Positions 45,700 through 55,387 of a DNA stretch of 64,000 bases are shown here, piece by piece. A model generated the notes under the pieces. The model made no database searches. It saw nothing but the letters and a program-made list of their open reading frames with translations, and was not told where the DNA came from. The position numbers were made by a program, and so were the translations under genes. Where the stretch lies: NCBI GenBank assembly GCA_015066095.1, contig SVPC01000005.1:1-64000 (forward strand), read 5' to 3'. Each line of letters opens with the position of its first letter. Positions within the stretch are counted from its first letter, which is position 1. The stretch comes from Oscillospiraceae bacterium. Lineage in GTDB: Bacteria; Bacillota; Clostridia; Oscillospirales; Acutalibacteraceae.

Positions 45700-45940
45700 T
45701 TTACAAATAATAGTATCATGAACTCATAGAACCGTCCCCTATGTTACCCCTACAAAATGTTTATAGGAATATATATGAAAGCAACTGGAATAGTTAGAAG
45801 AATCGAGGAATGCGTTATATTAGGACAAAAGTTGTCGAAACTCGCATAAATGCTGGGCTTTTCGCAGTTTTTGATTGGACTCAATTTGCACAAAAACATA
45901 AGATACATAGCAAAAGCGAGGGGAATTTCCCCTCGCTTTG
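45700..45940. repeat. Copy B: spoVT-leader repeat left of the xylose cassette
   Basis: The 340-bp gap holds ACAAATAATAGTATCA, also found before intact spoVT at 54811. Next comes a REP-like GAACTCATAGAACCGTCCCCTATGTTAC. At 45775-45849 there is a 24-codon ORF MKATGIVRRIEECVILGQ plus KLSKLA, a shortened copy of the SpoVT N-terminus. It ends in ATACATAGCAAAAGCGAGG and a strong hairpin (45912-45940), which also serves as the AraC-gene terminator. About 170 bp match copy C at 51829. Confidence 0.75.
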
Positions 45941-51749: not shown

Positions 51750-51764
51750 GCAGAACTCATAGTA

Positions 51765-51822
51765 TAAATCTCCTTGTTTTACAGATACTAACAGTACAAA
51801 TTTGTAAAGCAAGGAGATTTTT
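51765..51822 (+). terminator. Terminator of the xylose operon
   Basis: AAATCTCCTTG pairs with CAAGGAGATTT across a loop that itself pairs TTTAC/GTAAA, then a T-run. Its 3' arm AAGGAG also sits at ribosome-site distance from the short SpoVT-like ORF of copy C. Confidence 0.85.
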
Positions 51823-51828
51823 GTATAT

Positions 51829-52008
51829 ATGAAAGCAACTGGAATAGTTCGTAGAATCGAGGAATGCGTTATTTTAGGGCAAACCGCCTGAAAGGCGCAT
51901 AAACACTAGGGTTTTCGCTGGTTTGCCCCATTGAACGCATTGGTGTCAAAAACGGTTTTTGACGGTTTTTATACATAGCAAAAGCGAGGTGAAATCCACC
52001 TCGCTTAA
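51829..52008. repeat. Copy C: spoVT-leader repeat right of the xylose cassette
   Basis: At 51829-51891 there is a 20-codon ORF MKATGIVRRIEECVILGQ plus TA. Over the 18 shared codons it differs from copy B at three codons, all synonymous. The following ~110 bp resemble copy B (GCATAAACACTAGGGTTTTCGC versus GCATAAATGCTGGGCTTTTCGC). It ends in the same ATACATAGCAAAAGCGAGG hairpin. No other gene is visible between xylA and the ATPase gene. Confidence 0.75.
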
Positions 52009-52070
52009 AATTCATTATATAGTAATTAATAAGGGAAATATACCGTTTTTCACACGGGTGCGATTAAATA

Positions 52071-52099
52071 TTGACAAAAACGCACGCGTGCGTTATAAT
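52071..52099 (+). promoter_or_regulatory. Promoter with palindromic operator in the spacer
   Basis: TTGACA, 17 bp, TATAAT. The 16-bp palindrome AACGCACGCGTGCGTT (52079-52094) fills nearly the whole spacer, so a bound repressor would directly block polymerase. A weaker half-match CACACGGGTGCG lies at 52051. Confidence 0.88.
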
Positions 52100-52120
52100 A
52101 ACATTCGTGAGGTGATTAAT

Positions 52121-53764
52121 ATGTCCTATATAGGTTTGGAAGAAAATTTATTGATTGAATTTAAAAGTGATAGAAATTGTTTGGATAATAACGAAATAAT
52201 AGATGCGGTGGTCGCATTTGCAAACACTGATGGCGGAGATTTATATATTGGTGTTGAAGATGACGGAACAATCACAGGGCTTCATGATAAACATAAGGAT
52301 GCAACTCAGTTAGCTGCATTTATTGCAAATAAAACAGTGCCTCCAATTTCGGTGAGGGTAGAAGTAGTTGAAGCTGAATTCCCGTATTTAAAAATATCTG
52401 TACCTAAAAGAACATCTATAGTTTCTTCTTCAACTGGCAAAATGCAACGAAGAAGGTTGAAAGCTGATGGAAGCCCAGAAAATGTACCCATGTACCCATA
52501 TGAAATTGCGACGAGATTATCATCACTTAGCTTATTAGATTATTCTTCACAGCCTGTTCCAGATTCATCTTATTCTGATCTTGACCCTCTAGAACGAGAA
52601 AGACTTCGCAATATTATTCGATCTTATCGAGGCGAGCCTTCTTTGCTCGAGTTAAATGATGAAGAACTGGATAAAGCCTTACAACTGGTAACACTAAACG
52701 AAGGAAAGTTAGTGCCTACCTTTTGCGGATTGCTATTAATTGGAAAAAAAGAAGCACTATTGAAGCATATGCCTACAGCGGAATCTTCTATTCAGGTGTT
52801 AAGTGGTACCGATATTAAAATCAATGAGTCTTTTAAACTTCCAATTTTATCTGCCTTTGAAAAAATAACAGAGTTCTTCTCTGCGTGGAATCGCTCTGAA
52901 GAAATGGAAATGGGGTTATTTAGAATTACCATTCCTGATTATGACATAAAGGCTTTTAGAGAAGCTTTAGTAAATGCTTTTTGTCATAGAGATTATTCTG
53001 TGTTAGGCAGAGTCTTAATACAAATAACAGACATTGGCATGACAATTAGTAATCCTGGCGGTTTTATAGAAGGTATAAACATTGATAATCTATTAGACGC
53101 CGAGCCACACGGAAGAAATCCGGTTCTTGCCGATGCCTTAAAAAGAATTGGGTTAGCAGAACGAACTGGACGAGGAATCGACAGAATATACGAAGGCTCC
53201 TTGTCATACGGTAGACATTTGCCAGACTATACACAGTCAACAGCTAATTCTGTAAAATTGTTTATACCCAAAGGACCTACAGATAAAGCATTCATACAAA
53301 TGATTTCCTTAGAGCAACAACGTATGGGAAGATCATTACCTATACATTCACTATTAGTTATGAACGCTCTTAAAAATTCATCACGTTGTCATGTTCACGA
53401 GTTAGCTGAGGAACTTAAAATATCTGAAAGTCGTATTAGAACAACTGTTGAAACATTAGTTGTGTCAGGTTTAATTGAAGCTGGTGGTAATGGGCGCGGT
53501 CGCTATTATATGCTTAGTTCTAAATATTACAAAAAAACAAAGAATACGGTAGCATATATTCGTCAGAAAGATATAGACCCAATTCGCCATGAGGAATTAG
53601 TATTAGAGTTGCTCAAGAAAAAAGGCGATGTTAAGAGAGCTGATGTTGTTGATTTACTACATGTTACAGAACCACAGGCATTTCGCATATTGAAGAAAAT
53701 GGCGGATGCAAATAAAATACGATTAGTAGGTTCAGGGGCAGGATCTAAGTATGTTTTAAATTGA
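52121..53764 (+). CDS. AlbA_2-domain ATPase with C-terminal winged helices
   Basis: 547 aa, start ATG after GAGGTGATTAAT. Residues about 8-120 form the AlbA_2 (Schlafen-related) domain: LIEFKSD, AFANTDGGDLYIGVEDDGTI. Residues about 310-420 resemble the HATPase_c_4 region (ALVNAFCHRDY, NPGGFIEGI, RIGLAERTGRGIDRIYEG). Two wHTH-like segments follow, CHVHELAEELKISESRIRT and RADVVDLLHVTEPQAFRILK. Such proteins are often called DNA-binding or ATP-dependent regulators, with poorly known roles; some lie in accessory or defence regions. Identical palindromes in its promoter and just after its stop suggest autoregulation. Confidence 0.88.
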   Translation: MSYIGLEENLLIEFKSDRNCLDNNEIIDAVVAFANTDGGDLYIGVEDDGTITGLHDKHKDATQLAAFIANKTVPPISVRVEVVEAEFPYLKISVPKRTSIVSSSTGKMQRRRLKADGSPENVPMYPYEIATRLSSLSLLDYSSQPVPDSSYSDLDPLERERLRNIIRSYRGEPSLLELNDEELDKALQLVTLNEGKLVPTFCGLLLIGKKEALLKHMPTAESSIQVLSGTDIKINESFKLPILSAFEKITEFFSAWNRSEEMEMGLFRITIPDYDIKAFREALVNAFCHRDYSVLGRVLIQITDIGMTISNPGGFIEGINIDNLLDAEPHGRNPVLADALKRIGLAERTGRGIDRIYEGSLSYGRHLPDYTQSTANSVKLFIPKGPTDKAFIQMISLEQQRMGRSLPIHSLLVMNALKNSSRCHVHELAEELKISESRIRTTVETLVVSGLIEAGGNGRGRYYMLSSKYYKKTKNTVAYIRQKDIDPIRHEELVLELLKKKGDVKRADVVDLLHVTEPQAFRILKKMADANKIRLVGSGAGSKYVLN

Positions 53765-53776
53765 TCAAAACGCACA

Positions 53777-53818
53777 AAAACACACAAAAAACGCACGCGT
53801 GCGTTTTTTGTGTGTTTT
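53777..53818. promoter_or_regulatory. Perfect 42-bp palindrome containing the operator
   Basis: Two 21-nt arms meet at CGCACG|CGTGCG with no loop. The centre is the same AACGCACGCGTGCGTT 16-mer found in the promoter of the gene just upstream. It could be a second operator, a terminator-like cruciform, or both. Confidence 0.8.
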
Positions 53819-53833
53819 AATTTGTTTCGTAAC

Positions 53834-53862
53834 AGCGGAGTGGTATTCCACTCCGCTTTCGT
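53834..53862. terminator. Bidirectional terminator
   Basis: Stem AGCGGAGTGG/CCACTCCGCT with a 4-nt loop, followed by TTCGTTT, between convergent genes. Confidence 0.85.
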
Positions 53863-54780: not shown

Positions 54781-54850
54781 ATATTCAGTATAAATTCCCT
54801 TTAATCACAAATAATAGTATCACGAGTTGAAATTAAAGGAGAATTTATAT

Positions 54851-55387
54851 ATGAAAGCAACAGGTATTGTGAGAAGAATAGACGACCTTGGTCGTGTCGT
54901 TATCCCGAAAGAGATAAGAAGGACGATGCGAATCAGAGAGGGAGACCCTTTGGAAATATATACCAATGCGGGTGGGGAAGTTATTTTTAAAAAATATTCA
55001 CCGATGGGTGAACTTTCTAATTTTGCGACAGAGTATGCCGAAGCGCTTGGTACAGGTACCAAACTTGCGGTAATTATTTGTGACCGTGACCATTGTGTGG
55101 CGGCGGCAGGTATTTCTAAAAAAGAGGCGCTTGAACGTAGAATCACACCCGATTTAGAGGATATTATTGAGGGCCGTCGTAATGTGACATATACACCTGA
55201 GCAGACCCACTTTGCATTAGAGGGTGTCGAGCGTAAAATTTGTGCCGCAGTGCCTATAATTACAGCGGGTGATGTTTGCGGTGCGGTTGTTTTATTGGAA
55301 AGTGATGGTATTAAGGGCGTAGACGACGCAGAGGTTAAATTGCTTTCGGTTGCGGCAGCATTTTTAGGAAAACAGATAGAAGAATAA
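54851..55387 (+). CDS. spoVT: Stage V sporulation protein T
   Basis: A 178-aa AbrB-like regulator active in the forespore. The swapped-hairpin DNA-binding domain is intact (MKATGIVRRIDDLGRVVIPK, then EIRRTMRIREGDPLEIY). A GAF-like domain spans about 60-178 (AVIICDRDHCVAAAGISKKE, ICAAVPIITAGDVCGAVVLL). The start follows AAAGGAG. It indicates a spore-former. Two shortened copies of its 5' end lie at 45775 and 51829, and a shared upstream ACAAATAATAGTATCA links it to copy B. Confidence 0.96.
   Translation: MKATGIVRRIDDLGRVVIPKEIRRTMRIREGDPLEIYTNAGGEVIFKKYSPMGELSNFATEYAEALGTGTKLAVIICDRDHCVAAAGISKKEALERRITPDLEDIIEGRRNVTYTPEQTHFALEGVERKICAAVPIITAGDVCGAVVLLESDGIKGVDDAEVKLLSVAAAFLGKQIEE

Follow-up and report, generated by a model that had tools for sequence, protein, structure and literature searches.

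A Schlafen-type gene with matched palindromic sites in its promoter and after its stop codon: a candidate autoregulatory unit with a proposed operator code

In the 64-kb window, which is the whole stretch of DNA that was analysed, a gene for a Schlafen-like protein of 547 amino acids (P0001) is found between two identical 16-bp palindromes, one of which lies in the spacer of the gene's own promoter. Very probably, the product represses its own gene through this palindrome (O1) and a degenerate site next to it (O2), with the copy after the stop codon (O3) as an accessory, and would be released by a signal. The original prediction had proposed a self-contained autoregulatory unit. Sequence comparison lends strong support to regulation of the gene by its own product: the operator has a fixed position in the promoter, its occurrence is restricted to the gene, and its type co-varies with residue 522 in a winged helix-turn-helix (wHTH) of the product. 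The Schlafen catalytic triad is conserved as well.

Promoter, operators and encoded protein

The elements of the unit, with their positions in the window, are as follows.

52049–52064, no strand: distal operator O2, TTCACACGGGTGCGAT, degenerate, directly upstream of the −35 element; third in the matrix scan with 13.5 bits
52071–52076, plus strand: −35 element TTGACA, consensus promoter match
52079–52094, no strand: operator O1, AACGCACGCGTGCGTT, in the promoter spacer, in a register fixed across the family
52094–52099, plus strand: −10 element TATAAT, its first T common to the −10 element and O1
52121–53764, plus strand: gene for P0001, 547 aa, with the domain order SLFN_AlbA_2, HATPase_c_4, wHTH, wHTH
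52142–52411, plus strand: codons of the Schlafen-like AlbA_2 domain, residues 8–97, with E8, E13 and D47
53012–53257, plus strand: codons of HATPase_c_4, residues 298–379, from Pfam
53570–53761, plus strand: codons of the C-terminal winged helix, residues 484–547, from the AlphaFold2 model and operator co-variation
53777–53818, no strand: perfect 42-bp palindrome, made of O3 and the outer half-sites AACACACA ... TGTGTGTT
53790–53805, no strand: downstream operator O3, AACGCACGCGTGCGTT, the second exact copy of the O1 16-mer
53834–53857, plus strand: ordinary intrinsic terminator, stem AGCGGAGTGG and then a T-rich tail

The promoter, TTGACA-17-TATAAT, agrees with the consensus at 12/12 hexamer positions and has a spacer of 17 bp. 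The 16-mer had been predicted to lie in the spacer of a consensus promoter, and it does so at 52079–52094; the predicted coverage of 16 of 17 bases was off by one: O1 ends on the T with which TATAAT begins, which leaves 15/17 spacer bases covered. Both of the two sites predicted around the gene stand, while the degenerate third one, O2 (52049–52064), had been missed; its centre is 30 bp from that of O1, which is the usual position of the distal operator in the family. In the whole 1.32 Mb genome (G000), O1 and O3 are the only exact copies of AACGCACGCGTGCGTT, no further copy is found with up to one mismatch, and a single site with two mismatches is located on contig C28 within an unrelated coding sequence. 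The chance expectation for matches with up to three mismatches is 0.26 in the 64-kb window. When a matrix trained on the operators of other Arg522 homologues, with the window left out, was run over the 64 kb, O1 and O3 (29.1 bits) and O2 (13.5 bits) took ranks 1–3, and the next match scored 10.1.

The unit is preceded by a 5′-terminal fragment of a spoVT/AbrB-like gene (MKATGIVRRIE...), upstream region included (51761–51863), which is about 70–80% like the intact gene some 3 kb further on (54787–54885); this suggests an insertion or duplication boundary. Outside the operator unit, a 100-bp segment is present twice on the contig with 82% identity (51824–51925 and 45770–45871).

The predicted single AlbA_2/HATPase-like gene with two C-terminal winged helices is borne out by Pfam domains and by an AlphaFold2 model. 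SLFN_AlbA_2 (PF04326) scores 59.9 bits over a gathering cut-off of 25.3, and HATPase_c_4 (PF13749) 53.7 bits over one of 26; the first wHTH, which is MarR-like, covers residues 410–456 and the second about 490–546, and the DIP2311-like C-terminal domain PF22168 gives 21.1 bits with a cut-off of 27. In the model (mean pLDDT 86.5) a helix-turn-helix is formed by residues 506–513 and 517–529, the latter being the recognition helix of the C-terminal winged helix, in which Arg522 resides. The top fold matches by Foldseek are DIP2311 (3lmm) and the N domains of vertebrate Schlafens. GHKL motifs (N285, H289-D291, P312-G313 and R351-G352) are invariant in the homologues, and the Schlafen triad is conserved in E8 (71/71 homologues), E13 (71/71) and D47 (67/71). 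These three residues align with the catalytic E205/E210/D248 of SLFN13, whose mutation abolishes or lowers RNase activity. Because the RNase triad is conserved, we favour P0001 as a self-repressed Schlafen effector for stress or phage defence, potentially a toxic RNase.

In the proposed mechanism, the product, in which an AlbA_2/Schlafen domain bearing the RNase triad at the N terminus is followed by an ATP-binding domain of the GHKL type and two winged helices, would bind O1 in its own promoter spacer as a dimer through the C-terminal winged helix, and would bind a second time at O2, directly upstream of the −35 element. Occupancy of both would block RNA polymerase and keep expression low. 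O3, which has counterparts in about 30% of relatives, would offer a further binding site and may raise the local protein concentration or aid repression. A signal received via the ATPase or Schlafen domain, presumably phage infection or stress, would set the protein free, and expression of the potentially toxic RNase would then rise. Direct binding, repression rather than activation, the inducer, the RNase activity and the role in defence are what we infer from the comparison, and a further binder might be the first wHTH or a different protein.

An operator in the spacer is by itself no proof of repression, because activators of the MerR type also bind promoter spacers, and from the location of O1 the protein might activate its own promoter in a MerR-like manner. 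This is unlikely: spacers of MerR promoters are 19–20 bp long, whereas the optimal 17-bp spacer and the consensus hexamers seen here make an activator unnecessary, and tandem sites across the −35 element and the spacer fit occlusion.

Operator layout in homologues and the downstream palindrome

Homologues at 53–60% identity were obtained from searches of the order and the class, and a scan of genome contigs gave 80 more at 43–74% identity; the non-redundant set comprises 71 homologues with mutual identity below 85%, and homologues occur in distant phyla too. Nearly all of them have inverted repeats in the promoter, of variable sequence type: AACGCACG/CGTGCGTT, AACACACGCGTGTGTT, TTGCACGCGTGCAA, TAACTCG...CGAGTTA, AACGCACAAATGCGTT, TTACATGTAA and others. 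When the best inverted repeat within 120 bp upstream was scored, 28/71 homologues reached 10 or more, versus 2/85 control regions lying ahead of other genes of these loci. Furthermore, when promoters of the 71 homologues were picked from their −35 and −10 elements blind to palindromes, the most palindromic register was the 16-mer whose last base is the first T of the −10 element, with a complementary fraction of 0.51 versus 0.20–0.40 in other registers. In 18 loci the centre of the proximal site is 7 bp ahead of the −10 element; the distal site, often present, lies just upstream of the −35 element, and in loci with two CGCG-centred sites the spacing is 30–32 bp (13/15). Relatives in many gut bacteria share one layout with different operator sequences, or “passwords.” Another arrangement is seen in L005 and L090, where residue 522 is Tyr: the palindrome CAACTC...GAGTTG is located directly upstream of the −35 element, outside the spacer, and a matched copy also follows the stop codon.

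As predicted, the identical 16-mer (53790–53805) is the core of a perfect 42-bp palindrome (53777–53818), which starts at the 13th base after the stop codon (ending at 53764). This palindrome is terminator-like on both strands (RNA fold −26.6 kcal/mol, z −3.9), and it could be a bidirectional transcription terminator and nothing else, sharing its core with O1 by chance. Such a role is improbable, as the 16-bp operator core is present in the palindrome without a change, along with half-sites of the operator type, and an ordinary terminator comes after it at 53834–53857. Moreover, downstream sites of other operator types match the type of their own species: the downstream–upstream match is 16.6 in own pairs and 10.4 in mispaired ones (0/5000 permutations). 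A site after the stop codon resembling the upstream site of the same locus is present in about 20/70 homologues, a few of these matches being other repeats and not operators. From this fraction and from the separate terminator after the palindrome, O3 is taken as a probable accessory operator. DNA looping, also part of the original prediction, may occur but would be at most optional, because a matched downstream site is found in only about 20/70 homologues.

Another family of the order has a decayed copy of the gene (L007, 1455–1812). This copy retains the last 110 codons only, together with the downstream palindrome and the ordinary terminator, and is joined to unrelated sequence.

Occurrence of the site and co-variation with residue 522

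AACRCACGCGTGYGTT, sought in related genomes, was found in 4/391 genomes of the class, all among the 7/391 that carry the gene (homologue at E <= 1e-45), and in 0/384 genomes without it. In 17 genomes with this operator type, 38/42 sites with up to one mismatch are at the gene, and the exceptions are mainly in prophages. A regulon was sought and none was found, the two-mismatch site on C28 being inside a coding sequence. Both counts, 4/391 genomes and 38/42 sites, indicate that, as far as they show, the bacterial regulon of P0001 is probably its own gene alone.

The operator type also changes together with the recognition helix. Arg522 is present in 31/32 loci with a CGCG-centred palindrome upstream versus 13/38 without one (Fisher p 1.6e-8), and an alternative half-site definition gives a similar picture (36/8 versus 4/22, p 5e-8). 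Among the top-ranked alignment columns listed, column 522 has the highest raw mutual information (0.42); a few low-entropy columns exceed it in z-score, a value that small variance inflates. A tree from which the wHTH region was left out gives at least 9 changes of residue 522. In 6 independent pairs the operator changed in the same direction in about 3.5 and in the opposite direction in 0.1; this underpowered test (median p 0.125) falls short of significance because the pairs are too few. For example, Arg522 and a CGCG-centred site were regained in L130 inside a Ser/Thr/Ala clade, and both were lost in L077 and L083 inside an Arg clade. Some Arg522 loci break the simple rule, such as those of Bifidobacterium with their CATG-centred operators. 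The Bifidobacterium loci L131, L132 and L137 have TTACATGTAA/AACATGTT operators and keep Arg522 in a different recognition-helix context, ISAYRLL. Residue 522 is therefore proposed, from these sequences, as a candidate specificity residue for the operator type.

The sites might instead be operators of another host regulator, for which the AlbA_2 gene is merely a target; upstream half-sites vary by species, and binding by the own product is a prediction. However, the sites are essentially confined to the gene and shift with residue 522 of its own winged helix, so that a foreign regulator would need to move and co-diverge together with the gene, which makes this very unlikely.

It has also to be considered that the palindromes might mark the two ends of a small mobile unit. 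The spread is patchy, with the gene in 7/391 class genomes and homologues in distant phyla, the L007 remnant is a 3′ part fused to unrelated DNA, integrase genes adjoin in 3/80 cases, and matched flanking sites exist in about 20/70 loci. Nevertheless, the downstream copy is absent in most homologues, which largely refutes this reading; the upstream site keeps a constant register relative to the promoter, the unit, a single gene, has no transposase domain, and the operator type co-varies with the recognition helix. Mobile ends are thus most improbable. A common genomic repeat unrelated to AlbA_2 genes was set aside, the sites being essentially restricted to the gene and found in 0/384 genomes without it.

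Phage copies and relation to known systems

Two exact copies of the operator outside the gene locus were found in host genomes, both in prophages: one (L151:2417) is near head/scaffold genes and the other (L152:2583) near genes for an ArpU-like regulator and RusA. In IMG/VR, the extended pattern AACGCACG-N(0-8)-AACRCACGCGTGYGTT is present in 11 contigs, whereas two control palindromes with a similar composition gave 0; by a rough estimate, fewer than 0.1 chance occurrences of the pattern are expected if the collection is no larger than 100 Gb. Although gaps of 0–8 bp were allowed, the half-sites are 2–4 bp apart in phages and bacterial genes alike. With both prophages counted, operator-type sites occur in about ten unrelated phage groups without the gene (L151, L152 and the IMG/VR loci L028, L031, L032, L034, L048, L050, L052 and L155–L161), in varied contexts such as HNH/terminase, scaffold, holin and HD/methyltransferase genes. 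In L048 a distance of 31 bp separates two full sites. Neither P0001 nor its C-terminal wHTH alone was found in 15 site-carrying phage records, some of which are fragments; a viral scan with P0001 as the single query protein gave no relatives, and BLAST of a 42-nt operator against INPHARED phages gave no match.

It is conceivable, though doubtful, that the operator code serves as an interface to phages that carry the extended host Schlafen operator without the gene. If so, infection would titrate the self-repressor off its promoter, and the gene would thereby sense incoming phage DNA; or the sites would serve as phage decoys or targets, and the varied operator specificities would reflect an arms race. 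The phage copies, if functional, would suggest a simple coupling of phage DNA entry to the release of a self-repressed RNase.

For the defence module, which had also been suggested, the gene neighbourhoods show no consistent context. The neighbouring genes are of mixed kinds, and type I restriction, AbiEi and integrase genes are seen among them as single cases; no conserved partner gene of the type II toxin-antitoxin kind was found, and no Pfam family occurs in more than 3 of 80 neighbours. No PADLOC model matches P0001 over its full length; the matches are partial, the best one (E 1.6e-16) being to residues 182–358 of an Argonaute-associated model.

In autorepressed toxin-antitoxin operons, a toxic product is held low by binding to the operon's own operator. 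P0001 is alike as a potentially toxic RNase and a predicted binder of its own operator, and differs in joining the toxin-like and DNA-binding parts in one protein, with no partner antitoxin gene found. Vertebrate SLFN13, SLFN11 and SLFN5 (PDB 5yd0, 7zel and 7cux) share the AlbA_2 fold and the E-E-D triad with P0001, but they have neither a GHKL domain nor a wHTH and no transcriptional autoregulation. DIP2311 of Corynebacterium diphtheriae (PDB 3lmm) is the best match in both sequence and fold (109.6 bits by profile, Foldseek E 3.6e-29); its identity to P0001 is about 18%.

TrlG of Photorhabdus is likened to P0001 by domain layout, with Alba_2 at 14–128 and HATPase_c_4 at 298–365, two domains at equal positions; according to PMC7554251, it is required for growth arrest at 36 °C, and expression of its locus is tightly linked with that arrest. 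It differs in belonging to a temperature-induced three-gene operon, for which the same available text reports no palindrome (PMC7554251).

The closest domain order, SLFN_AlbA_2, HATPase_c_4 and winged helix, is that of COG2865-type Schlafens, which combine a Schlafen-family RNase, a minimal histidine kinase and a wHTH and are reported as linked to BREX loci (PMC12839542, which also cites a preprint on bacterial Schlafen defence); in PubMed Central no primary paper on how bacterial Schlafens function was found. In contrast to these, P0001 is encoded by a single gene without a conserved neighbour and with matched operators, and the literature found describes no operator, specificity code or DNA target for the COG2865 family. 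COG2865 proteins were long labelled predicted transcriptional regulators and are now described as phage-defence-linked Schlafen RNases. Proposed here are a target, namely the own promoter, a geometry of a spacer site and a site about 31 bp upstream, and a specificity residue, 522, with each of dozens of natural variants given an operator type; therefore, the regulatory and defence hypotheses are testable with short DNA probes and reporters. P0001 itself belongs to a known family; what is new is the operator code, together with the phage copies.
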